A stretch of DNA of 64,000 bases from Endomicrobium sp. GTDB taxonomy: Bacteria > Elusimicrobiota > Endomicrobiia > Endomicrobiales > Endomicrobiaceae. The stretch's first letter is position 1; each line of letters begins with the position of its first letter. This document shows, piece after piece, positions 2,762 to 21,710 of this stretch. The translations under genes and the position numbers were made by a program. The stretch lies in assembly GCA_031264325.1 (NCBI GenBank), contig JAISEE010000033.1:1-64000 (forward strand), in the 5' to 3' direction. The notes under the pieces are model-generated. The model ran no database searches, was not told the DNA's origin, and saw only the letters and a list, made by a program, of their open reading frames with translations.

Positions 2762-3844
2762 TTATTTTTTCACTTTGATTAGTAAATAAACGCCTATACT
2801 CAAAAATATAAAGCTTGGCATCCATGTCGCTATAAATGGCGATAGTATTAAATTTTTACCAAAAGAAGTTGTTACAGCCTGAATCGCCCAATACATAAAT
2901 GTTGCAGATAATGCAATAGTAAAATTAAATATCATGCTTATTCTTCTTCCAAACCCTATAGCAAAAGGTATTCCTATCATCATAACTATAATATGTGAAA
3001 AAATAGAAGAAAATCTTGCATTTAACGCAATTTTTGCTTTTATTGCCGATTGCCCAAAAATTTTTAATTGGCTTATATATTTATTAAAATCAATTATATT
3101 CATGCTATTGTACGGAGGACTTTTAAGCGCTATATCTTTAGGGGTAACATTTATGTTGGAATTATATTTTTTAAAGTAAACTTCGTTTAAAAAGTTGCTT
3201 TCAGAGTCTCTTATAACGCCATTTTTAAGTACCCAAGATCCATTTTCCCAATCTGCTTTCTCGGCTAAAACAAGCCTTTTTAATTCAAAGTTTTTATTGT
3301 ATTTTTCAAATACAATGTTTTTCATTGTATTTATTTTTATATCAAGGTGTCCAACTGTTAATCTTACGTTATTTTTTAACGTTATTATTTGATTATAAAA
3401 GTCCGTATGTACTGATATTTTTTCTTTTTTTATTTTTTCAATATTTATTCTTCTGTTGTAAACTGTTGTTTTAGTTACAATAAATTCCCTGCAGGCAAGA
3501 TCCGCAATTCCTATAATAAATCCTATTGTAATGAAAAGTGAGATAATGCACCACATATTTATTCCAGCAGCTTTCATTGCTGTAATTTCATTTTTTTTTG
3601 CAAGATTCCCGAGAGAAAACAATAAAGCCAAAAGAGTAGCTATAGGCAAAGCTTGCACAAACCATTCTGGAGCATTTGTAAGTATGTGAATAATTATTAT
3701 GTTAAAAGTTGTTTTGTTTTCCATGTAAAAATTTATTTTGCCAAGTAATTGCGATATTGTGACCACAACAGAAAAAATTGTTGTTGTAAATATAAAAATT
3801 TTAATAAAATTTTTGAAAATATATTTGTAAAAAATTTTTATCAT
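2762..3844 (-). CDS. lptG: LPS export ABC transporter permease LptG-like (YjgP/YjgQ family)
   Basis: NEITAMKAAGI motif, six-TM YjgP/YjgQ layout; overlaps the upstream paralogue by 4 bp. Confidence 0.82.
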   Translation of the reverse strand: MIKIFYKYIFKNFIKIFIFTTTIFSVVVTISQLLGKINFYMENKTTFNIIIIHILTNAPEWFVQALPIATLLALLFSLGNLAKKNEITAMKAAGINMWCIISLFITIGFIIGIADLACREFIVTKTTVYNRRINIEKIKKEKISVHTDFYNQIITLKNNVRLTVGHLDIKINTMKNIVFEKYNKNFELKRLVLAEKADWENGSWVLKNGVIRDSESNFLNEVYFKKYNSNINVTPKDIALKSPPYNSMNIIDFNKYISQLKIFGQSAIKAKIALNARFSSIFSHIIVMMIGIPFAIGFGRRISMIFNFTIALSATFMYWAIQAVTTSFGKNLILSPFIATWMPSFIFLSIGVYLLIKVKK

Positions 3845-4977
3845 TTTTTTACCATCTTTCTGAATAAATAAATTCCTACTGTACCTATAACTAAATTAGG
3901 TAGCCATATTATTATTCCTAGAGGAAGATATTTTTTTTCACCTAAATTAATTGAAATTACAAACAATGTATAATAAATAATTACTATACCAAGACTTAAA
4001 CCAAATCCAAGAGCTTTGCCTCCTCTATTAGTACGGACTCCTACAGGTAAAGCTACGATAATAAAAACAATAGGAGCGACAGCAAATATCCATCTAATCC
4101 AATAGTCTAGTAAATAAGGCATAAGTTCAAGTTTTTGTTTTTTATATTCCTTTATTGTTTCAATTAGCTTTGTAGAAGATAACTCTGACGGTCCTATATT
4201 ATAGTTTTTAACAGTGTCGAGCAGTGGTATAAAGATAGAGTATGTTTTAAAAGTTGCGTGAGTTATACTTGTCATATCGGAATGAGAAATTTTTTGCCAA
4301 TACCCTTTGTAAAGGATCAGTTGCGCCCCTGTGGTATAAGCTTTTACAGTAGCTGAAGATGCTGTTATGCGACATACTTCTTTATCATTTTGTAGTAAGT
4401 CATTTTTACTACTATTTGCGGTATAATCATTTTTAAATTTATATATACTTACTCCACTCAAAGTATTTTTAGTGTTATCAACTTTATTGCTGTATATTTT
4501 ATGGTCACCGAGTTTTGTTATAGATTTTTCGTTAAACTTAATAAGAGGTTTTTTTGTTATAATTTGTTCAAAATAAACTTTTAAATTAGAATTTAATTTT
4601 GGGGCAAAAAAGTGATTAAAAAACATTAAAAAAAAAGAAACGCTCAATACAAAAATTATTATTGGCATTGTGAGTGTTTTGTAATCAACTCCAGCAGCTT
4701 TCATTGCTGTAATTTCGTTGTCTGATGACAGTCGTCCATAAGAAAGTAGTGTTCCAAAAAGCACAGCCATAGGTATTGACAATGTTAAGGAACTTGGAAT
4801 ATAGAAAGCAAACATTTTGATAATTATCCAAAGAGTTACACCTTTTTCAATTAAGATATCCATAAGTTCAAATGCAAAACTTAATATTATAAGAAATGAA
4901 AAAATAACAATACCAAAAATAAAAAAATGTAAAAATTCTTTAAAAATGTAAAAATGTATTTTTTTTATCATGACCAT
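3841..4977 (-). CDS. lptF: LPS export ABC transporter permease LptF-like (YjgP/YjgQ family)
   Basis: NEITAMKAAGVDY motif; paired with the adjacent paralogue. Confidence 0.82.
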   Translation of the reverse strand: MVMIKKIHFYIFKEFLHFFIFGIVIFSFLIILSFAFELMDILIEKGVTLWIIIKMFAFYIPSSLTLSIPMAVLFGTLLSYGRLSSDNEITAMKAAGVDYKTLTMPIIIFVLSVSFFLMFFNHFFAPKLNSNLKVYFEQIITKKPLIKFNEKSITKLGDHKIYSNKVDNTKNTLSGVSIYKFKNDYTANSSKNDLLQNDKEVCRITASSATVKAYTTGAQLILYKGYWQKISHSDMTSITHATFKTYSIFIPLLDTVKNYNIGPSELSSTKLIETIKEYKKQKLELMPYLLDYWIRWIFAVAPIVFIIVALPVGVRTNRGGKALGFGLSLGIVIIYYTLFVISINLGEKKYLPLGIIIWLPNLVIGTVGIYLFRKMVKK

Positions 4978-7395: not shown

Positions 7396-8625
7396 ATGAG
7401 TGTAATGTCAGTTGAGCTTTTTATAGCGATAAGATATTTAAGGGCAAGAAGAAAAACTTTTTTTTCTTTATTTACTGTTTTTATTGCCGTAGGAGGCATA
7501 ACATTGGGCGTTGGCTCTCTTGTTATAACACTTGCGGTTATGAGTGGTTTTCAAAATGATATAAGAAATAAAATTTTAGGTATACAGCCACATATATTGA
7601 TAACAAGAAGCGGTGGAGAGTCTTTTGAAGATTATGTTTCCGTGGAGGATAAAGTAAAAGCTAATAAAAATGTTACAAGTGTGTTACCGTTTATATATCA
7701 GCAGGGTATTGTAAGGGGTATTAATTCTTCATCTGCTTCAGGCATAATAATAAAAGCTGTGGATTACTCCAAAGAAGATAAAATTTTAAACCTTTCAAAA
7801 CAGATTGTTGTTTCAGATGCTAAATTTAGTGGTGAAAATATTGGAAAGAGATCAATAATATTGGGTTGCGAGCTTGCAAGAAATATTTCTGTGGATGCAG
7901 GTGGCGAAGTTGTTTTAATGTTTCCTGCAAGTTTGGGGAGTATTCCTATAATGTATAAATTTAATGTTTCAGCAATAATAGAGTCTGGGATGTATGACTT
8001 TGATTCTTCTTTGGGGTTTATAGATTTAAAAGAGGCGCAAAGTTTATTTTCAATGCCTGATTCTATTACTGGACTTGATATACATACGAATAATTTTGAT
8101 AAAGCGTCAGCAATTGCGTTTGAACTTCAAAAAAATTTGCCTTATCCGTACAAAGTAAAAACATGGTTTGATATGAATAAAAATCTTTTTTCAGCGTTGA
8201 AGCTTGAAAAAATAATGATGTTTCTTATTTTGGGGCTTATAATAACTGTCGCGGCTTTTAATATTATTTCTAACCTTTTGCTTCTAAGTGCTCAGAAGTT
8301 AAAAGAAATAGGGATAATGTCTGCTATGGGGTTTTCAAATTACTCTATTTCAAAAATATTTTTTTATGAAGGACTTATTATTGGCTCGTTAGGAACAGCG
8401 TTTGGGGTAATTTTTGGAGTTTCTGCAAGTTTTGCATTAAAATATTTTGATATATTTAAACTTCCAAAAGGTGTTTATTATGTTGATAAACTTCCAGTTT
8501 CTATAGTCCCTTTGGATATATTAACAGTAGCCCTAAGTGCTTTTGTTATATCTGTACTGGCAGGTCTTTATCCTGCGTGGCGGGTTGCAAAGTTAGATCC
8601 TCTTGAAGCTATAAGGTGTGGCTAG
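7396..8625 (+). CDS. Lipoprotein-releasing ABC transporter permease (LolC/LolE family)
   Basis: MSVELFIAIRYLRARRKTFFSLFTVFIAVGGITLGV N-terminus, C-terminal FtsX-like domain, followed by a LolD-like ATPase. Confidence 0.9.
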   Translation: MSVMSVELFIAIRYLRARRKTFFSLFTVFIAVGGITLGVGSLVITLAVMSGFQNDIRNKILGIQPHILITRSGGESFEDYVSVEDKVKANKNVTSVLPFIYQQGIVRGINSSSASGIIIKAVDYSKEDKILNLSKQIVVSDAKFSGENIGKRSIILGCELARNISVDAGGEVVLMFPASLGSIPIMYKFNVSAIIESGMYDFDSSLGFIDLKEAQSLFSMPDSITGLDIHTNNFDKASAIAFELQKNLPYPYKVKTWFDMNKNLFSALKLEKIMMFLILGLIITVAAFNIISNLLLLSAQKLKEIGIMSAMGFSNYSISKIFFYEGLIIGSLGTAFGVIFGVSASFALKYFDIFKLPKGVYYVDKLPVSIVPLDILTVALSAFVISVLAGLYPAWRVAKLDPLEAIRCG

Positions 8626-8645
8626 ATATTTTATTAGAATTAACT

Positions 8646-9305
8646 ATGAATATAAAAGTTGAAAATTTAAACAAACAGTATACTAAAAAAAATTCTGTTG
8701 ATGTTAAAATATTAAAAAATATAAATTTGGAAATAAAGTCTGGACAAAAAGTCGTTTTAATAGGTCCGTCAGGAGTTGGCAAAAGCACATTGATACATAT
8801 TTTAGGATTGATGGATAGACCTACTTCTGGAAAGGTTTATATAGACGGAATTGATTGTTTTGACAAAGACGATAAATATTTGCGTGTCATCAGAAGAAAT
8901 TATATAGGTTTTGTTTTTCAGTTTCATTATCTTATGCCAGACTTTACAGTTTTGGAGAATATCCTCATCCCTGTTTGGAAAAATAAAGAGTTAAAATTAA
9001 AACAAGCACAAGGTATTTTAAACAAAGCCGGACTTTTACACAGGCAAGCTCATTATCCTTCAGAGCTTTCTGGTGGTGAACAACAAAGAGTGGCTATTGC
9101 GAGAGCTTTAATAAATAACCCTCGTGTAATTTTTGCGGATGAGCCTACTGGTAATTTGGACAGACGGACAGGTCTTGAGATAGAAAATTTGCTATTTGAC
9201 GTATCAACAAATACAGGGGCTGCTCTGGTTCTTGTAACGCATGATGAAGATCTTGTCAAAAAAGCTTATAGAGTAATTAAAATTATTGATGGATGCATAT
9301 TATAA
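8646..9305 (+). CDS. lolD: Lipoprotein-releasing ABC transporter ATP-binding protein LolD
   Basis: Walker [10 protein letters not shown], signature [15 protein letters not shown], Walker [16 protein letters not shown] 8646 more likely than the track start 8616. Confidence 0.92.
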
Positions 9306-10275: not shown

Positions 10276-13200
10276 ATGCGAAAGATTATAATATTTTTTA
10301 TTGTACTAGTTTTGTCTATTTTCGTATATTGTGCAAGAGATTTTTTTTTAGTTCCTTATTTGCAAAAATATGTAAGCACTAAAACTGGACATAACATATC
10401 TATAGGTAGATTTTCATTATCTCCGTTTAAATTATCTCTTAAAGATCTTGATGTTGATAGCATTATAAAAGTCCGAAAGACTACTTTAAAATTAAATCCA
10501 TTTAAATTTTTTTTTAACTTTTTTACCCATCGAGGAATAATACAAGTTGAAGTATATAACGTTGAGATTGATTTAAAAGAAAATCAATATGCTTCAGTTC
10601 TAAAGCCAAATGGTAAAAAAGCTGTTTTAAAGCTCCCGAAGATTGGTATTGATGTTCATATTAATGAAGTTTTAATCAAACAAGGAACGGCACTTTTTAA
10701 TATAACCGACACTTATATATATGTTGATACAAATACGATAAAATTAGACTCAGTTTTACATGCAGCTGGCAACTCAATTAAACTTGAAGCTTTATTGAAA
10801 CAGAAAGAAGGGTATCTTTTTGATGTATCAGTTGCTCTTAAGTCTAAAAATAAGATTAATATGTTTATAAATTCTAACGGGGTTATTGATTTGTTATCTT
10901 TTAATTCTGATTGGAATATATATATTGTAAAGCTAAATTATAAAGGTTTTGATTTTGGAGGAACATTGGGTGGGGTATTAAAAAGTGAAAAAGATACTAA
11001 TATTGAATTTGCTGGTAAGTTTGGAAAATTTAAAACAAACGGTTTCTTTAGTAATACAATAAATGCAGAAGCATTTATTGACTTTTCTCAAACAAACAAG
11101 TCTGTATCCGGAAAACTTAATATGAGCTTTAAAAAACGAAAAGGTTTAAAAGAATTAAATCTCAAGGTTTCAAAATTGAATGCTTTTGATTTTAATATAG
11201 AAAATTTTGAATTGTTAAGCAGTGAAAATAATAACGGTACATATAAAATTGTTTGCAACTATGGTTTGAGAAAACGCTTGGAAGTTATTTATTTACAAAG
11301 CGGAGATTATAAGGGTGATTTAATTATAAGAGATAAAAAGGTAGGGTATATAAAAGGAAATATCAAAAAAGGGACAATTATTGTTGATGCTAAAAATATA
11401 AATATAACTGATATGCCTTTAATCCCTGTTGTGGTAAAAAATGTTAATGGAAGGGGAAGTATTTTTGGCAATATAAATGAAACTTCAGGTAAGGTTGATT
11501 TTTCTTTTATATCTGATACAAACATGGTTGACACCAAAGGGACTATAATTCGCGATAAAGATAGATATACTTTTGATTTTTATAAATGCGACGGTTCTAT
11601 TTTATTAAAACATGTTGTTTCAGGTGGCAGTGTAATATTTACAGATTTTAAATTTAAAGAAATTAATATTATGAACGTTTTGCATGTTATAGGACATTCA
11701 AAAATAGATATTTCAGGAATGGCAAGCGGTAATATAAGTTATAAAGAAAAAGATGTATGTATAAAATTTGATCTTAAGGCTTTTGAAGGAGTGCTTTATG
11801 ATAATAATTTTAAGGAACTTGAAGTAAAAGGAGCAGTGGATTTAAATTTAAATAAGGTAAAGATTGAACACTTTGTTATCAAAAATGCATCAAATACTGA
11901 TGCTATAGTTGATATAAAAGGACTGATAGGTTTTACAAATGAAAACCCTGAGTCCTCCATATATATTGATTTAAAGGATATTATTGTACGAGGTGTTAAA
12001 GTAAACTGTCATAGTGAATTTCATGGTTATTTAGGCACTGGAAAAGTGATAAAAGGCGTATTAAAGAGTATTGGAGTAAAGATAGGTGGCATTTTTTTGG
12101 GAAACATGGAAACTGATGTAAGTATTTCAACAAAAAAATTTAAATTATCAAATTTAAAAGCTGATAATGGTTTGAGTATGATAGTGTCGGCAAATTTAAA
12201 AAGGAACGAGATATCTGGTATTATTGATTTTAAAAATACGAATATAGAAGGAATATATCCTGGAATTGTTGGATTTTTAGATGCTTCTGTAAAATTTTCA
12301 GGGAAACTAAATAATCCTTATATTAAAGTTTCCTTTTTGTTTAAAAAAAGCGCTTATCTATCTCAACCCTTTTCTTTATCATCTGTAATTTTTTATAAAG
12401 ATGGGATCGTAAATATAAATAAAATGAATATTATATCAGGCAGGACGAAAGTTTTCCTTTCAGGAAAATATTCAAACGTAGGACGTCTTCAGGTAACTGT
12501 AAGTAATTTAAGCGATAGTATTATAAATAATATATTGACAGGAGGACTTACATTGCCTTTTAAGGGTGAACTTTGTGGAAAAGGTGAGATTTATTTTCGT
12601 GATAAAAAACCTGAACTTAAGATGCTCCTAGAGACTAAAGACGCTTATGTAGGTTCTTTAAAATTAAAAGATTTTAAAACCGAAATTGAAGTTGTCAATA
12701 AAAATATTATAATAAAGTCCACTTCTGCAAAAATTTCTAATGGCGAAATAAGGATTGATGAAGGTTTTTGTGATCTAAATAACAATAAATACTTTTTAGA
12801 TTTATTTTTTATAAATATCCATGCCGGACAGATGGATTTGTTCGGGAACGTCAAACTTTATGGTGATATAGTAGAAGAGAATAGGATTTTTATATTTAGT
12901 GGAATTGTTGATTTAAATAATTTATGGATGAATAAATATAAATTAAATCATTATTTTTTTAATTATTCATTTAAAGATGGCATATTAAAACTTTTTCAAA
13001 AACCAATAGATAAAAATAATGATTTTAGTTTATTCTGTGAAATTATTTTTGGTGACATTCTGACAGTGAAGAAATTGAATGTTGTAGGAAAATCGTCACA
13101 TTTTGATATGTCTGGGAATTTTTCAAAAGATTGCGTAAATTTTGAAGTCACAGGTTTTGGTATTGATTTGAAACTTATGTCAAATTTTTTTGATTTACCT

Positions 13201-14877
13201 GTAGGATTAGAAGGCGACACTGATGTATACATTAAATTCAAAAGCGATGCGAGTTCTTTTAATGGTAATATGTCAATCGTTTCAATAAGTGGGGCTTTGA
13301 TGAATATTCCATTTGATAAGTTATGTGTTTATATGGACTTTTATGATAACCGTATTTATATAAAAGAGGCATTTGTTTCAAAAAAAAATGATATAAAAAT
13401 TGTCGCAAAGGGGAGTTTTCCTATTTGCTTAAGCGAAAAAGTATCTAAAGAAGTTGTAGATATTTCTTATGAGATTGAAGATAATAAACTTGGTATCTTA
13501 AAATATCTTTCAGACGGTTTTTTGAATCCTTTAAGCGGTAAATTATTATTGAAAGGTACCATAAACGGAAGTTATAAAAGTCTCAAAAACAGTGGAACGC
13601 TTTCAGTTTTTGATGGAATATTCCATTTTAATGGCTATTTTGGTAAAATAAAAAATGTAGTAGCTGAAATATTTCTTACTGACAATTTGATTAAAGTTAA
13701 TAAGTTTACCTTTAGTTCAGGAGCAGGTAAAGTAAACATTTCAGGATTAATAAAACTTAAGAATTTTATTATAAAAAATTTTGATATTAGAGCTGTTACT
13801 GAAGGGAAGAAAGGAATTCCCATATCTGTACATCAGCTGCCTATTTCAAAGTTTATGAGATCAAAGTCTGTGCTGAAAGATTATTCTTCAGGAAAACCTT
13901 TGTTTGATATTAAAATCGAAGGAAAACCAAAAAATTTTTTGGTTTCTGGACATATTGTTTTGGAAGACACAAGGTTTACTTTCCCTGGAGAAAAAGATAG
14001 TGAGGGTTTCAACAACATTTCGTTTTTAGAAAATGCTAAATTCGATTTGGATTTATACACTGGCAAAAAGACAAAATTTGAAAATTCAATTGTTTCATCT
14101 TTAATAAATGGGACTTTGCACATAAGCGGAAGTCTCAACAGTTTGAAATCTGAAGGAGTTATTGAATCAACAAGTGGAAGACTGAACTATTTTGGGATAG
14201 GTTTTTTTGATATATTAAGTGCCAGATTAGAAATAATTGACAATAATCAAATTTATGTGACTGTAGAAGGTGAAACTGTGATTCCTTCAAAAGCAGGACG
14301 AGGATCTGAAACAGTAAAATTATTTGTAAAAAGGTGTAAATTATCTGAACTTTCAAAAGGTAATGCAATAAAATTTAGTTCAAAAGATGAACTGAATATG
14401 GATCCTCAAAAAGGCTTGGCTAAAATTATGGGTATGGATCAAGACAAAGAAACAAACTATTTAAGATTTGCATTAAGTGGTTTTGAGCAGGAATTTTCAA
14501 CTCCTCTCGCAATATTGTTATTGCATAAAATAGGTATTGCTGATAATTTTAGAATTTCTTATGTCAATACTGACGATGATACTGTTGCTATAGATAAAAG
14601 CCTAAGGCTTGTTAATTTACTACCAGGGACAAGATGTACAGTGGAAAAGGGTATAAATAAAAACATTCTATTTGGATATAGCTTAACTTTTTCTGAGTTT
14701 AACAGAAAACTTGATTTGACCCACAGTATGGAACTGCGATATAAATTAGCACCAAATTTATTTTTAAAATGCAATTATGAGTTTAATCATGAAGAGTGTT
14801 TTAGAGAACGGGATAAATCAATAAAACTTCAACAGCAATTTAAATTTGGACAGTCAAAAAAACATAAAAATAAATGA
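10276..14877 (+). CDS. tamB: AsmA/TamB-family inner-membrane-anchored protein (translocation/assembly module TamB-like)
   Basis: 1533-aa protein with an N-terminal TM, repetitive beta-rich body and C-terminal DUF490-like region. Confidence 0.75.
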   Translation: MRKIIIFFIVLVLSIFVYCARDFFLVPYLQKYVSTKTGHNISIGRFSLSPFKLSLKDLDVDSIIKVRKTTLKLNPFKFFFNFFTHRGIIQVEVYNVEIDLKENQYASVLKPNGKKAVLKLPKIGIDVHINEVLIKQGTALFNITDTYIYVDTNTIKLDSVLHAAGNSIKLEALLKQKEGYLFDVSVALKSKNKINMFINSNGVIDLLSFNSDWNIYIVKLNYKGFDFGGTLGGVLKSEKDTNIEFAGKFGKFKTNGFFSNTINAEAFIDFSQTNKSVSGKLNMSFKKRKGLKELNLKVSKLNAFDFNIENFELLSSENNNGTYKIVCNYGLRKRLEVIYLQSGDYKGDLIIRDKKVGYIKGNIKKGTIIVDAKNINITDMPLIPVVVKNVNGRGSIFGNINETSGKVDFSFISDTNMVDTKGTIIRDKDRYTFDFYKCDGSILLKHVVSGGSVIFTDFKFKEINIMNVLHVIGHSKIDISGMASGNISYKEKDVCIKFDLKAFEGVLYDNNFKELEVKGAVDLNLNKVKIEHFVIKNASNTDAIVDIKGLIGFTNENPESSIYIDLKDIIVRGVKVNCHSEFHGYLGTGKVIKGVLKSIGVKIGGIFLGNMETDVSISTKKFKLSNLKADNGLSMIVSANLKRNEISGIIDFKNTNIEGIYPGIVGFLDASVKFSGKLNNPYIKVSFLFKKSAYLSQPFSLSSVIFYKDGIVNINKMNIISGRTKVFLSGKYSNVGRLQVTVSNLSDSIINNILTGGLTLPFKGELCGKGEIYFRDKKPELKMLLETKDAYVGSLKLKDFKTEIEVVNKNIIIKSTSAKISNGEIRIDEGFCDLNNNKYFLDLFFINIHAGQMDLFGNVKLYGDIVEENRIFIFSGIVDLNNLWMNKYKLNHYFFNYSFKDGILKLFQKPIDKNNDFSLFCEIIFGDILTVKKLNVVGKSSHFDMSGNFSKDCVNFEVTGFGIDLKLMSNFFDLPVGLEGDTDVYIKFKSDASSFNGNMSIVSISGALMNIPFDKLCVYMDFYDNRIYIKEAFVSKKNDIKIVAKGSFPICLSEKVSKEVVDISYEIEDNKLGILKYLSDGFLNPLSGKLLLKGTINGSYKSLKNSGTLSVFDGIFHFNGYFGKIKNVVAEIFLTDNLIKVNKFTFSSGAGKVNISGLIKLKNFIIKNFDIRAVTEGKKGIPISVHQLPISKFMRSKSVLKDYSSGKPLFDIKIEGKPKNFLVSGHIVLEDTRFTFPGEKDSEGFNNISFLENAKFDLDLYTGKKTKFENSIVSSLINGTLHISGSLNSLKSEGVIESTSGRLNYFGIGFFDILSARLEIIDNNQIYVTVEGETVIPSKAGRGSETVKLFVKRCKLSELSKGNAIKFSSKDELNMDPQKGLAKIMGMDQDKETNYLRFALSGFEQEFSTPLAILLLHKIGIADNFRISYVNTDDDTVAIDKSLRLVNLLPGTRCTVEKGINKNILFGYSLTFSEFNRKLDLTHSMELRYKLAPNLFLKCNYEFNHEECFRERDKSIKLQQQFKFGQSKKHKNK

Positions 14878-15458
14878 AAAAATTAAAATATTAAAATGAA
14901 GTTTAATATAAAATAAATACAAAGTCCTTTTAAAAGATTTTGAAAATTTTACTAAGATAATGTTATTGATATGTCGTTAAGCATTACATAGGAGGTAACA
15001 TTTGAAAAATAGTTTATTTGATAGATAATAAAATACATCTAATGTGATTTTAGATGACTTTGGTTTTATTAATCTTTTCATAGTTTTAAAAGAAAAAATT
15101 GTAAAAGAATCTTATTTGGGGACGTTGTCGTTTTTTTTAGTTTGCAGTTGGCTGTGACTGTTATATTAATAAATAGTGGTTGATTATAGTAGTTCTAAAT
15201 ACTAAAATAATAAAGTGACTGTTGATAAGTTACAGTGGTTAGGGTAGGATATTTGAAAAATATATGTAATAAAAAACAAATAATTATCTGTGTTTTGACT
15301 GAAAAAGTTAACAAAATAAATAAGACGAAAGTCTATGTTAATAACATTTATATATTTCTAGTTATATTTTATGTTATATGTCTCATACTTCGTACGCACT
15401 TTGGATCTCAATGTAATTCTCTTTTTGTACTATATTAACATACCTTGCCATTGTTGCT

Positions 15459-15809
15459 CTATATTTGCTCTATAGATTTTTCAATGTCAATTTTCAATTC
15501 TCTATATTTTTTTTCTATGCTTTCTATTGTCATAACTATTTCATTTTCTACACTTAATATATTCCAAAGTCGTTTTAAATACAGATCTTTTATGCCTATC
15601 AAGTAAAGTTTAATATCATTATATACTTTTTCCTATATATTAGCATCACTGTAGATATTAACAAGCCTATTTGCCTCTTCTTTCTTTTTAGTTTTTTTGT
15701 AGCGGTTAAGTCACCTTGTATCTACTTTATTGTATCAGCTGCTAAGTGTTTTTTTTGTATTCACTATTTTGATTTTATTATTTTTTTCATATATCTTCTT
15801 GTAGAACAT
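15459..15809 (-). pseudogene. Decayed gene of unknown function: one 117-codon frame with three internal stops
   Basis: Minus-strand frame reads MFYKKIYEKNNKIKIVNTKKTLSS*YNKVDTR*LNRYKKTKKKEEANRLVNIYSDANI*EKVYNDIKLYLIGIKDLYLKRLWNILSVENEIVMTIESIEKKYRELKIDIEKSIEQI*; a coding-like frame also lies upstream in another phase across an A7 run. Confidence 0.5.
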
Positions 15810-15876
15810 AAATTCTGTTAAAATTTTTTTGAATTTGTTGCATTATTAGTGTCATTTACGCTGATTACACCATACT

Positions 15877-15910
15877 TTTTATTACGTTTATATATATAAA
15901 CGTAATAAAA
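15877..15910. repeat. Perfect 34-bp palindrome (ttttattacgtttatatatataaacgtaataaaa)
   Basis: Sequence equals its own reverse complement; no loop. Confidence 0.95.
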
Positions 15911-16168
15911 CTTATGATTTAATTAGACTTGTTATTTTGGCAAGGATTTAACTTATTTTATACAGCTACTAATTAAACTAACTTTTTACTTTCTCATACT
16001 TTGCATTTTTCATTAAACAAAAACAATAAACGACTCTTAAAGAATATTTTTATTGATTCTCTTTTTTATATTCCTTTTAACTTGGAATTATCATTTTTTT
16101 ATTTTATTACTCGTTATTTTTATTTTTTTTTAAAAGCATTTTTTCATTTTTTCTAAAATCTTATTAAT

Positions 16169-18295
16169 TCACTCTTTCAATTTTTTTCTAAATATTGTAA
16201 CTATTGCGTATGCAGAAAAGACTCCTATCAATGCTCCAGCAAGAACATCTGAAGGAAAATGATTTCCTGTATAAATTCTATAAAATCCTGAAGAAAAAGC
16301 AAATAATATGTATAAATACCAATACTTTTTAACCATTACAAACATGAAAATGCATAAAGAAAACGCAAGTTCTGTATGCCCTGAAGGGAAAGAAAGTGTG
16401 TATATTTTTTCAAAGAGTATGTTTGTATTTTTTCCAAATACTTTTAGAGGGCGAGGTCTTTCAAAATAATATTTTAGAAAATGAATTATTACAGCGCCTA
16501 CTGCCATTATGCTTGTCAATAGGGCGAGCTTTGTCAAAAAGTGTTCTTTTTTATTTTTCCATAGGATAGATATGCATATTGTAAGTATTATAAAAAAACT
16601 TAAGTTAAAATTTTTGGAGTCACAATATGAAATAGGTATCATAAAAAAGTCTAAAAATTTAGACTTTAAGTTTGAATTTATAAATTTGAAAACAAAATGG
16701 TCAAATTTTAAAAATTTTTGCTTGAGGTCTTTTTTTGTTTCCAAATTTAGAGCGGCATAAGACTGCTGAAGTTTAGTCGGATTGAAAGACTTGCAAAATG
16801 TAAAATAGAAATTTTTAATTTTTTTGCCATTTCTATATACAGGGAACTCTTCAATTTCAGTATATGATGAAAATACACCAGTTTCATATCTGCTTTTAGG
16901 CTCTGAAAAGAAGTAATTGTTGTATATGTATAATCCATTTTTATTTTTTAATTTTTTTAAGTCTCTCTGCCAAAAATCGTAAGCATTTATTTTGTCGCTT
17001 ATGCAAAATACTCTAAGTTCTGGAACGCATGCTGAAAGTTCACTTGCTAAATAGCTTTTGTATGTAAATATAAAAGGTCTTTCTTTTTTTGAATAAGTGG
17101 TTACTATTCGTCTTATTTCGTTCCCTACTTCTTTCCAGCCATAAACTTCATTTGTTAAATCAATTTTTTCGCTTTCGGGTATACCGTGTTCTATTTTTTC
17201 AAGTTTACCCTTTGGTATTAATTTTTTCATTGGTATAATTCCGTACAAAGTATGTAGGAAAATCATGATAACCATAAGCAAAGTTAAGCTCCAAGCTGTA
17301 TAAGAATAAAATTTGAACCATTTTATATGCCAAAATTTTAATGTTAAATGAGTTGTATATATTGATAAAACTAGATATCCCATAGCAGGCCAGTGGGGAA
17401 GTATTTCATTAAATGTTGCCACTGTGTTAAAAATGAGCAAGGTAGGTAACGAGAAACAAGAAATAATAAGAGCTGTTCTATTCTCTCTTTTATAAGCTTC
17501 TTTAACACATAAGAACGCAGCGATTATAAACATTAAAAATAGTAAAGGAGAAATATATCCGGCTTGTGCTCCTATGGATCTGCCAAAAAGTGTTAAAGAA
17601 AATTTAGGCAAAGAATGTCCAACTCCATGTCCTAATTGAAATCTGAAAGATGCCCAGTTGTTTTCTGTATTCCATATTAGAACAGGTAAAAAGGTTATGA
17701 CAGACAGGATAAGCCCAATGTATGGTTCTTTATTTTTAAACCAAAATCTGTGTTTTGACGAAAAAATAAGAAATAAAAACACTGAAAAAGGTATCAAAAT
17801 TCCGTTATATTTAGAAAGCATTGCAAATCCTGTTGTAATACCTAGCAAATACCAATATTTTTTATTATTTGTTTCAATTATTATGATAAATATAAGAAGC
17901 GATAGGAGCCAAAACAAAGCAAGTGGAGAGTCTGGAACGGTTATTACAGAACCTAAAAAAGAAAATACTGGAAGAATATTTAATAGCAATATACCGGCAA
18001 AAGCCGTTTTTTCATTGTAAAGTTTTTTAACACATATAAAAAATATCCAAATTGCAAAAAAGAAAATTAATACTGCGGGACATCTTACTGCAAATTTAGT
18101 GTCATTGAAAATTAATGTTGATGCTTTAATTATATAACCAATTAGAGGTGGATGGTCAAAATATGAAAAATTTAGAAATTTAGAATATACCCAATAGTGA
18201 GCTTCGTCTATAGTTAGCCCTATTTTGTCTATTATTAACAGTCGCAATAGTGTTGTGGCAATATTTACAACCCAAAACCATAACCTGTAGTTCAT
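16169..18295 (-). CDS. GT39/ArnT-like glycosyltransferase fused to a C-terminal PAP2 phosphatase domain
   Basis: N-term TIDEAHYWVYSKFLNFSYFDHPPLIGYIIK (PMT/GT39); C-term KYYFERPRP...SFPSGHTE...SGFYRIYTGNHFPSDVLAG (PAP2 motifs). Confidence 0.88.
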   Translation of the reverse strand: MNYRLWFWVVNIATTLLRLLIIDKIGLTIDEAHYWVYSKFLNFSYFDHPPLIGYIIKASTLIFNDTKFAVRCPAVLIFFFAIWIFFICVKKLYNEKTAFAGILLLNILPVFSFLGSVITVPDSPLALFWLLSLLIFIIIIETNNKKYWYLLGITTGFAMLSKYNGILIPFSVFLFLIFSSKHRFWFKNKEPYIGLILSVITFLPVLIWNTENNWASFRFQLGHGVGHSLPKFSLTLFGRSIGAQAGYISPLLFLMFIIAAFLCVKEAYKRENRTALIISCFSLPTLLIFNTVATFNEILPHWPAMGYLVLSIYTTHLTLKFWHIKWFKFYSYTAWSLTLLMVIMIFLHTLYGIIPMKKLIPKGKLEKIEHGIPESEKIDLTNEVYGWKEVGNEIRRIVTTYSKKERPFIFTYKSYLASELSACVPELRVFCISDKINAYDFWQRDLKKLKNKNGLYIYNNYFFSEPKSRYETGVFSSYTEIEEFPVYRNGKKIKNFYFTFCKSFNPTKLQQSYAALNLETKKDLKQKFLKFDHFVFKFINSNLKSKFLDFFMIPISYCDSKNFNLSFFIILTICISILWKNKKEHFLTKLALLTSIMAVGAVIIHFLKYYFERPRPLKVFGKNTNILFEKIYTLSFPSGHTELAFSLCIFMFVMVKKYWYLYILFAFSSGFYRIYTGNHFPSDVLAGALIGVFSAYAIVTIFRKKLKE

Positions 18296-18994
18296 TTATC
18301 TCCCTGTTAATTTTAGCTTTAAAGCTTTGAATAAATATGTTATTAAAGTTTTTAGGTGAAGCTTTGATTTACCTGAAAATCTGGCAAGAAATATTATTGG
18401 ATATTCTTTGACTTTTAAATTATTTTTTTTAACTTTATATAGAACTTCGGTAATTATGAAAGGATCGCTTGCCGTTAACTCAGTTGCGAATTTAGCTAGA
18501 GCGGCTCTTTTAAACATTCTATAACCGGAGGTAGGGTCTTGTATTTTAACTTTTAACACAAAAGATAAGTATCGCCTTGAAAAGTTGCTTATTATTTGTC
18601 TAATTATTGGTCTCTCTTTATCTTTTCTTCCATTGATATAGCGTGATCCTATAACAACATCATAACTTTCTATTGTTTTTAAAAATTCTGGGATATATTT
18701 AGGGGAATGAGAACCATCCCCATCCATTTCAACTATATAATCGGCTTTCATATCAAGAGCTTTTAAGAATCCATCTTTCCCGGCATACCCGCGACCTCTG
18801 TTTTCTTTTCTTAATAGAAGGTGTACTTTATTATTTGTTTTTGATATTTCTTCAACTATTTTGTACGTTTTGTCAGGAGACATATCATCTACAATCAAAA
18901 CGTCTGCACTGACACCACAATTTAAAATTTTATCAATTATCATCTTTATATTTGAAGCTTCGTTGTATGTCGGCACTATTACGACAGTTTTCAT
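18296..18994 (-). CDS. Polyprenol (dolichol-phosphate mannosyltransferase, DPM1-like) glycosyltransferase family 2
   Basis: VIVPTYNEASNIKMIIDKIL, DVLIVDDMSPD, YIVEMDGDGSHSPKYIPEF, DPTSGYRMFKR. Confidence 0.9.
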   Translation of the reverse strand: MKTVVIVPTYNEASNIKMIIDKILNCGVSADVLIVDDMSPDKTYKIVEEISKTNNKVHLLLRKENRGRGYAGKDGFLKALDMKADYIVEMDGDGSHSPKYIPEFLKTIESYDVVIGSRYINGRKDKERPIIRQIISNFSRRYLSFVLKVKIQDPTSGYRMFKRAALAKFATELTASDPFIITEVLYKVKKNNLKVKEYPIIFLARFSGKSKLHLKTLITYLFKALKLKLTGR

Positions 18995-19032
18995 TAAAAC
19001 CTCTATTTGAACTGTGTTAAGGTAGGAACAAA

Positions 19033-20193
19033 TTATAAATACTGCTTAACTGCTTTTATAACGTCTTTTGCTGTTATTGCCTCCATACAGGTATCAGCTA
19101 AATTGCATTCCTGTTTATAGCAGACTACGCAATTTTTATTAGATTGTATTTTTACGCCTTTGGAATATATTTCTATTTCATTGATTGAAGTTGGACCAAA
19201 AAGAGCTACGATATTTTTTTTAAGTCCGGCAGCGGCATGTAAAGCCATAGTATCTCCGCATAAAACTACGTTGCATAGATTTATCTTTGCAAAAAAATCT
19301 GGAATAGTATTGTTAATTCCTGTTGATATAACATTTGACATATTTTCTTTTAAAATCAAGTCAATTTCATTTTTATCATGAGTACTTCCGAGCAATAAAA
19401 CGAAATATCCTTTTTGCGAAAAGTATTTTGCAGTTTCAATAAACCCCTTTGGTGTCCATTTTTTTAATTTCCACATATTCCCTGCACCTGGGTTTATTCC
19501 TATAATTTTTTTATTGTTATTTATATTGTTGTCTTTTAAAAATTTTTCAGCCTTTTCTATTGATTTTTTTTGCAAAGGAACAATTATTTCATAGTTGTCT
19601 TTTGGTAGTTCGGTTATTTTAGACATCCAATATTGATATGTAAAAGTATTGGCTTTCTTAAGTTTATCATAAGCACTTGCTTTAAGCCATTCTTTAGCAT
19701 AGTTGTTTGATGTTATAATGTTTCTACGATCATCTAAAGTAAACCCTAAGACTTTTTTTTTATTTGAGAGTTTTGTAAGAGATAAGCTTTCAAAAGCTAA
19801 ATCTAAGTTGATGACAATGTCAAAAAATTCGTTTGCAAGATATTTTATGACATTGTCATAATTATTATGTATTACTCTATCTATCAGATTGTTACCTTTA
19901 AGAACAGCTGCATTTTTTATATCAACAATCCAAGATATTTCACTTTTAGAGTAAATTTCTTTTAAGCCGTTTAAAATAAAAGTAGTTCTTAAAACATCAC
20001 CCATGGCTCCAAGTTTAACAATTAGAATGCGTTTGTTATTTTTGTTAGCTGAGTTAGCTGAAAGTTTTGAATAATTTTTACATTTTTTACAAGTGACATT
20101 ATTATATTTTTGGTAAACACACGGCCTATCTAACTTAAATTTAGAACAATCTGTGAAAACTTCAAAAGAATCAGTATTTTTTATTATAATCAT
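19033..20193 (-). CDS. Glycosyltransferase family 9 (heptosyltransferase-like)
   Basis: RILIVKLGAMGDVLRTTFIL, IGINPGAGNMWKLKKW, VLCGDTMALHAAAGLKKNIVALFGPTS, C-terminal Cys motif ending in CMEAIT. Confidence 0.88.
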   Translation of the reverse strand: MIIIKNTDSFEVFTDCSKFKLDRPCVYQKYNNVTCKKCKNYSKLSANSANKNNKRILIVKLGAMGDVLRTTFILNGLKEIYSKSEISWIVDIKNAAVLKGNNLIDRVIHNNYDNVIKYLANEFFDIVINLDLAFESLSLTKLSNKKKVLGFTLDDRRNIITSNNYAKEWLKASAYDKLKKANTFTYQYWMSKITELPKDNYEIIVPLQKKSIEKAEKFLKDNNINNNKKIIGINPGAGNMWKLKKWTPKGFIETAKYFSQKGYFVLLLGSTHDKNEIDLILKENMSNVISTGINNTIPDFFAKINLCNVVLCGDTMALHAAAGLKKNIVALFGPTSINEIEIYSKGVKIQSNKNCVVCYKQECNLADTCMEAITAKDVIKAVKQYL

Positions 20194-20285
20194 AACTTAT
20201 AAAGTTAGCAAATTTTACCTGAGATTGCAATATCACGTGTAAATTAGTAAAATTGTAGATTAATGAGTTTATTTAGTTGGAGTTT

Positions 20286-21710
20286 ATGGATAAGTTATTT
20301 TGTAGAAAAAATGCTTTTTTTATTGTTTGTTTTGTTGTTTTGTTTAAAATATTTTTATCTGCTTCTATAGAGCTTCACCCAGATGAGGCGTATTATTGGC
20401 TTTGGTCTCAGCATTTAGCTCTAGGATACTTTGATCACTCTCCAATGGTGGCGTGGTTTATAAAAACAACTACATTGTTTTTTAATTCTGCAGTGGCAGT
20501 AAGATTTTCTTCTATAATAGTAACCATAGTACTCAGTTTTTTGATATGGAATTTGACTAAAGAGATTTTTAGTGAAACTATAGCTGCGGCATCTGTTATC
20601 GTATTAAATACTTTACCTGAAACGATGACAGCTTCTATAATAATAACACCTGACACACCTGTGTTTTTATTTTTCTCTTTGAGCGTTTATTATTTGTGGC
20701 GTTTAATTGAAAGTGGCAAAACAAGGTATTGGTATATAACAGGTTTATTTTTTGGGTTTGCTTTATTGTCAAAATATACAGCCACATTGTTTGGATTAAG
20801 CATTTTTGTGTACATGATTGCAGACAGAAAGTGGTATTGGTTTAAAAATAAACATTTTTATTTTATGTTTATTGTCTCTTTCATTGTTTTTTTGCCTGTT
20901 ATTATTTGGAATTTACAACATGGATGGGTGTCTTTCGCATTTCAATTTCGCCATGGCTTGATAAGTAATAAAATTCATTTTGATTATATTTTTGATTATT
21001 TGGGTTCTCAGTGTCTTGTTGCAGGTCCTATTATTTTTATTTCTGGTATTATTGCGGCAATCTATTATTTTTGCTCAAAGAATTCAAAAAAGATTTTTAT
21101 TGTATCTTTTTCTATACCAATAATAATGTTTTTTTTGTTTACAGCTTTAAAAAGAAGTCCAGGAGCAAATTGGCCTGCCTTTGCCTATTTTACTTTTAGT
21201 ATTATGTGCTGTGCTTATTTACTTGAAAATAACTCAAAAATAAAAAGAAAGATTTTAGTCTATGGAACAATGTTTAATTTTATCATATCTTTTCTTTTAG
21301 GTTTGCATGTTAAGTATACGATTGTTCCTTTAAAGCTTTTTTCACATCATGCCGCAGTCGCTGATGCCACTAATTATTTCTACGGTTGGAGTAAACTTGG
21401 AGATAATCTTGTAAAAAGAGATGTTAAATATGCTGTAACAAATACTCAGCAATGGGGTGGTGCCATAGCTTATTACACAAAGAACAAAATACAAGTATTA
21501 ACTGGACCAGTGCCTGTAAAACAGTTTAAATATTGGCCCATTCCTGACGATTTGTCTTATTCAAAAGTTGCAGTTGTAAATGTGGATAAAAATATGGATG
21601 CCGATTTTAGTAAAATTAAAAATGCAGATATTATGATTGTTTTAAGGAGCGGAATTCCTATTCGTCAATACGCAATTGTTGAAAGCAACGGTTATGAAAT
21701 GAAAAAATAG
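20286..21710 (+). CDS. GT39/ArnT-like membrane glycosyltransferase (no PAP2 domain)
   Basis: ELHPDEAYYWLWSQHLALGYFDHSPMVAWFIK; ATG at 20286. Confidence 0.85.
   Translation: MDKLFCRKNAFFIVCFVVLFKIFLSASIELHPDEAYYWLWSQHLALGYFDHSPMVAWFIKTTTLFFNSAVAVRFSSIIVTIVLSFLIWNLTKEIFSETIAAASVIVLNTLPETMTASIIITPDTPVFLFFSLSVYYLWRLIESGKTRYWYITGLFFGFALLSKYTATLFGLSIFVYMIADRKWYWFKNKHFYFMFIVSFIVFLPVIIWNLQHGWVSFAFQFRHGLISNKIHFDYIFDYLGSQCLVAGPIIFISGIIAAIYYFCSKNSKKIFIVSFSIPIIMFFLFTALKRSPGANWPAFAYFTFSIMCCAYLLENNSKIKRKILVYGTMFNFIISFLLGLHVKYTIVPLKLFSHHAAVADATNYFYGWSKLGDNLVKRDVKYAVTNTQQWGGAIAYYTKNKIQVLTGPVPVKQFKYWPIPDDLSYSKVAVVNVDKNMDADFSKIKNADIMIVLRSGIPIRQYAIVESNGYEMKK

Follow-up and report, generated by a model that had tools for sequence, protein, structure and literature searches.

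The window, a stretch of 64,000 nucleotides from an 802-kb, 75%-complete genome of an endosymbiotic Endomicrobium/Endomicrobiellum (Elusimicrobiota), carries on its minus strand a GT9-GT2-fusion operon in which the last gene joins a GT39 transferase to a PAP2 phosphatase. The nearest kin of this genome are Endomicrobium/Candidatus Endomicrobiellum metagenome-assembled genomes (MAGs) from termite guts. The initial annotation had placed a GT9, a DPM1-like GT2 and a GT39-PAP2 protein here, together with a second, divergent GT39, and the open reading frames and Pfam matches agree:

16169..18295, minus strand: GT39 (ArnT/PMT_2)-PAP2 fusion, 708 aa (Pfam, AlphaFold, Foldseek)
16796..18295, minus strand: GT39 part of the fusion, residues 1-500; multi-TM GT-C core plus an extracytoplasmic C-terminal region
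16172..16795, minus strand: PAP2 part of the fusion, residues 501-708; catalytic signature, Pfam
18296..18994, minus strand: DPM1-like GT2, 232 aa; its stop abuts the start of the fusion
19033..20193, minus strand: GT9, heptosyltransferase-like, 386 aa; first gene of the operon
20286..21710, plus strand: second GT39 without PAP2, divergent; start at ATG 20286 or at the in-frame TTG 20277

The gap between the GT2 stop and the ATG of the fusion is 0 bp, and 38 bp separate GT2 from GT9. The second GT39 gene adjoins the operon in close relatives and is absent at the corresponding site in Endomicrobium proavitum. Promoter and terminator scans returned matches at chance level only. The region had been called eroding, which is fair, given that the listed ORFs cover approximately 70% of the window and that 1.3 kb without long ORFs (14878-16168) lie downstream of the fusion. 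Contigs of several relatives stop within 0.2-0.8 kb of the end of PAP2, hinting at a repeat there. Envelope transport genes elsewhere in the window have been kept despite genome reduction: an LptF/LptG pair (2762-4977) and an FtsX-like permease with an ABC ATPase (LolC/LolD-like, 7396-9305), near which lies a TamB-like gene (10276-14877).

Domains and fold of the fusion protein

Pfam profiles place PMT_2 at residues 47-208 of the 708-residue ORF (E 8e-37; 127.4 bits against a gathering score of 26.1) and PAP2 at residues 591-705 (E 1.5e-22; 80.1 bits against a cut-off of 27.2), so that the protein belongs to both the GT39/PMT_2 family and the PAP2 superfamily. The neighbouring proteins match Glycos_transf_2 (GT2, E 2.9e-27), Glyco_transf_9 (GT9, E 2e-23) and PMT_2 alone (second GT39, E 3.1e-36). 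The AlphaFold model of the fusion has a pLDDT of 86.4 and a pTM of 0.74. In Foldseek searches its N-terminal part retrieved ArnT (5f15 and 5ezm; 5f15 with E 2.6e-9 and TMt 0.61), demonstrating an ArnT-type GT-C fold, and its C-terminal part retrieved LpxE (6ebu, TM 0.78, 31% identity); a search against viral models gave nothing relevant. A sequence profile search with PAP2 likewise matched LpxE (E 5.5e-26), followed by YodM (5jki, E 5.5e-14). Profiles, model and fold thus confirm that GT39 and PAP2 reside in one polypeptide.

We also checked for loss of catalytic residues, and the motifs are intact in both domains, so that neither half of the fusion is broken in the window organism. In the alignment, the GT39 residues D30-E31, H33-Y34, H48-P49-P50 and P121-D122 are invariant among intact relatives, with the D-E motif (D30-E31) in the first loop. 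The PAP2 signature (K608-x6-R615-P616, P637-S638-G639-H640 and R673-x5-H679-x3-D683) is invariant across the 32 relatives aligned and intact in 59 of 59 relatives.

Assignment to a characterised enzyme is a different matter. The fusion scores 33.5 bits against the ArnT L-Ara4N transferase equivalog (NF009784), for which the cut-off is 567. The NCBIfam models nearest to its PAP2 part are the undecaprenyl-diphosphatases SepP and PRK11837, with scores far under the cut-offs (SepP, 51.8 of 250), and PgpB scores 18.6 of 261. The LpxE model does not match the window protein, and gives 23.4 of 177 for a PAP2-only relative.

Spread and domain erosion

We followed the fusion and its neighbourhood through 295 Elusimicrobiota genomes and, outside the phylum, through plasmid records. 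The fusion is present throughout the family of the window organism and in the order's other families; families f7 and f9-f14 yielded no copy, and in the plasmid records GT39 and PAP2 proteins occur only separately. Homologues 61-85% identical to the window protein are present in many independent assemblies, and the finished genome of the cultivated, free-living E. proavitum (G075, 1,588,979 bp) encodes one at 57% identity, which argues against a chance or assembly join. The GT9-GT2-fusion order is kept in E. proavitum (L145) and in family f5 (L148). In the sister family f8, a single ORF of 921-938 aa (G044, G047, G050, G052 and G054; L028-L032) contains Glycos_transf_2, PMT_2 and PAP2 domains, equalling the GT2 and the fusion of the window joined together. 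This triple fusion indicates that the 3 activities belong together. No sugar-nucleotide pathway is present among the annotated neighbours in E. proavitum and families f5 and f8. The architecture had been put forward as undescribed, and we found no description of it in the literature.

Within the genus, 35 of 42 genomes have exactly one PAP2 domain above the cut-off, always in a fusion-derived protein. GT39 motifs are intact in 16 of these 35 (counting G025, which carries D47G), and in the other 19 GT39 is dead or deleted with PAP2 intact, in the following states:

GT39 motif-broken, nearly full-length or shortened: G012, G032, G110, G069, G144
In-frame GT39 deletion with the original start kept: G020
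N-terminally shortened to PAP2 only: G010, G008, G137, G027, G001, G014, G028, G007, G024, G029, G031, G017, G034

In several independent cases, in-frame deletions leave the PAP2 frame open. Many of the PAP2-only genes have as a neighbour the convergent ABC-ATPase homologue that also flanks the intact loci, and are therefore probably the same locus. GT2 is intact in 14 of 15 genomes with an intact GT39 versus 0 of 15 without, in a test that ignores shared ancestry. Changes in GT39 state number at least 4 on the MraY tree and at least 6 on the PAP2 tree; GT2 and GT39 have been lost together repeatedly in the genus, at least 4 to 6 times. The DPM1-like GT2 is probably a polyprenyl-phosphate sugar synthase, judging from its Glycos_transf_2 domain and its coupling to GT39 in the triple fusion and in co-loss. 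Both observations strengthen the pathway logic of the initial annotation, in which GT2 supplies GT39.

Selection differs between the two halves. For GT39, dN/dS is 0.05-0.25 in intact clades, including that of the window, and mostly 0.33-0.70 for remnants when broken genomes are compared within one lineage; the lower values between distant broken genomes (0.12-0.22) arise because they are averaged over an intact past. For PAP2, dN/dS is mostly 0.2-0.4 in intact and broken groups alike, the G069/G144 pair (0.53) standing apart. PAP2 is under purifying selection, its frame open and its motifs intact, while GT39 and GT2 decay. The PAP2 frame of G024 (L080) has no ATG, GTG or TTG before codon 84, yet its dN/dS is 0.2-0.3, which suggests a non-standard start or early decay.

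Retention had also been taken to argue for importance at the host interface. The data lend this no support: the operon is present in free-living E. proavitum as well, and host-restricted endosymbionts discard GT2 and GT39 and keep PAP2 alone.

A proposed role of the PAP2 half in wall lipid-carrier recycling

BacA is the usual undecaprenyl-pyrophosphate (C55-PP) phosphatase. None of the 42 genus genomes encodes it, nor do E. proavitum, G078 and G060 (99-100% complete), whereas 28 of 35 other family members have it, as do 23 of 24 genomes from outside the family. Among BacA-less family genomes at least 80% complete, 31 of 33 have PAP2, and the single PAP2 domain of the finished E. proavitum genome lies within the fusion. 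Neither enzyme was found in G004 (94% complete) and G011 (87%). G004 has no GT2 either, and its sister genomes have the island on short contigs, making an assembly gap plausible, though unproven, for this genome. Since the genus is represented mostly by incomplete MAGs, single absences carry little weight. Two further genomes show other arrangements, the first of them the reciprocal case: G132, which has BacA, encodes an intact GT39 homologue (L144) that stops before the PAP2 domain and has none attached, and in G060, without BacA and 99% complete, GT39 and PAP2 are separate genes on different contigs (L106, L141).

MraY was found in most genus genomes (G018, with 4% contamination, has two MraY-like genes, L124 and L125), and a published analysis found peptidoglycan synthesis conserved in most of the family. 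C55-PP must therefore be dephosphorylated in these bacteria. In the endosymbionts of termite-gut protists, the phosphatase half of the fusion appears, from gene content, to be the only enzyme remaining for wall lipid-carrier recycling. We consider it probable that the fusion is bifunctional, with PAP2 the sole recognisable C55-PP phosphatase after the loss of BacA and GT39 an expendable transferase. With somewhat less confidence, we favour the view that C55-PP recycling has moved wholly into the phosphatase domain of the fusion, in free-living E. proavitum and endosymbionts alike, and that reduction then carved PAP2 out.

The active sites of GT39/ArnT and PAP2 enzymes face the periplasm, and the fusion would be an inner-membrane enzyme with two such sites, both presumably on that side. 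The neighbouring GT2 would make a polyprenyl-phosphate sugar, from which GT39 would take the sugar and place it on an envelope acceptor; because of the GT9 partner, LPS core or lipid A is the most plausible one. PAP2 would strip phosphate from lipid phosphates, presumably converting C55-PP to C55-P for the wall cycle. In the Endomicrobium/Endomicrobiellum lineage, once BacA had been lost, it would carry the carrier-recycling step of peptidoglycan synthesis, a probably essential role that would explain the repeated trimming of the fusion to PAP2 during reductive evolution. There is precedent for this: LpxE takes lipid A, C55-PP and PGP as substrates, and LpxE enzymes complement an E. coli mutant in C55-PP phosphatase (PMC6581854). 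The initial annotation had proposed that PAP2 could either recycle the carrier used by GT39 or remove a lipid phosphate. ArnT-type transfer already releases the carrier as undecaprenyl monophosphate (PMC12826051), so that PAP2 is not needed for this by-product, and we set the first of these options aside; C55-PP from other pathways is the likelier substrate.

Could PAP2 serve lipid A instead? Rhizobia, Caulobacter and Aquifex modify their lipid A by removing a phosphate and placing a sugar at or near the same spot. By analogy, an LpxE/LpxF-like PAP2 might remove a lipid A phosphate and an RgtD/ArnT-like GT39 add a sugar at or near the site, with no essential C55 role. LpxE is indeed the closest solved structure to the PAP2 part, the GT9-GT2-GT39-PAP2 operon and the triple fusion would fit, and LpxC and LpxB are kept by most relatives. 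However, many genomes keep PAP2 without GT39 and GT2, and no other recognisable C55-PP phosphatase is left once BacA is lost. Moreover, PAP2, MraY and PgpA have been kept in G007, G027 and G031, three genomes that have neither LpxB nor an intact LpxC, so that, as far as their completeness (76-83%) permits, lipid A dephosphorylation is not the reason for PAP2 retention there. We thus regard lipid A remodelling as an unlikely account of the present state. It possibly holds for the ancestral, BacA-containing one, and stripping of lipid A may be what originally brought the two domains together.

It is quite improbable that the pattern is coincidental, the PAP2-only frames being decaying remnants and an unrecognised enzyme handling C55-PP. 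The start-codon problem in G024, the dN/dS of 0.53 in G069/G144 and the missing PAP2 in BacA-less G004 and G011 could be read in this way, but fully intact motifs, PAP2 dN/dS values that stay low in most of the broken lineages, and the independent in-frame deletions speak against it. Least probable by our estimate is retention of PAP2 as a PgpB/YodM-like phosphatidylglycerophosphate phosphatase, a role that would suit the profile match to YodM and the 5 genomes without detected PgpA (G002, G004, G005, G012 and G032), but that is made unlikely by the presence of PgpA in nearly all PAP2-only genomes (G001, G007, G014, G017, G024, G027, G028, G029 and G031).

Assignment of C55-PP recycling to PAP2 would name a candidate for a step left open in symbiont genome papers, which describe a retained peptidoglycan pathway; the genomes themselves lack BacA. 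In the main text of a 2024 mBio paper on these symbionts, the word "undecaprenyl" does not occur. The double fusion, the triple fusion and a graded series of natural deletions separate the half that is kept from the half that is dispensable and, if the proposal is correct, genome reduction has drawn a natural domain-essentiality map of the fusion.

Comparison with known systems

With ArnT and other GT39 enzymes (PMT_2, PF13231; 5ezm, 5f15), the fusion shares the GT-C fold, an acidic D-E in the first periplasmic loop and a DPM1/ArnC-like partner gene. It differs in its C-terminal PAP2 domain, in its identity to ArnT of only approximately 13-14%, in having no adjoining sugar-nucleotide genes at the loci read, and in scoring far under the NCBIfam ArnT cut-off. 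The K-x6-RP / PSGH / R-x5-H-x3-D signature is common to PAP2 and to LpxE (Aquifex, 6ebu), PgpB, YbjG, YodM and SepP; unlike these, PAP2 here is fused behind GT39 or reduced from such a fusion, and its scores reach none of the curated equivalog cut-offs. BacA/UppP (PF02673) does the physiological job that is proposed here for PAP2, but is of an unrelated family and is absent across the genus in which PAP2 is the only candidate. The rhizobial RgtE-RgtD-LpxE/LpxF lipid A pathway offers the same combination of a DPM1-like donor synthase, a GT39-type transferase and a PAP2 phosphatase; in rhizobia these are separate genes, whereas here they are joined in two- or three-domain fusions with a putative envelope target.
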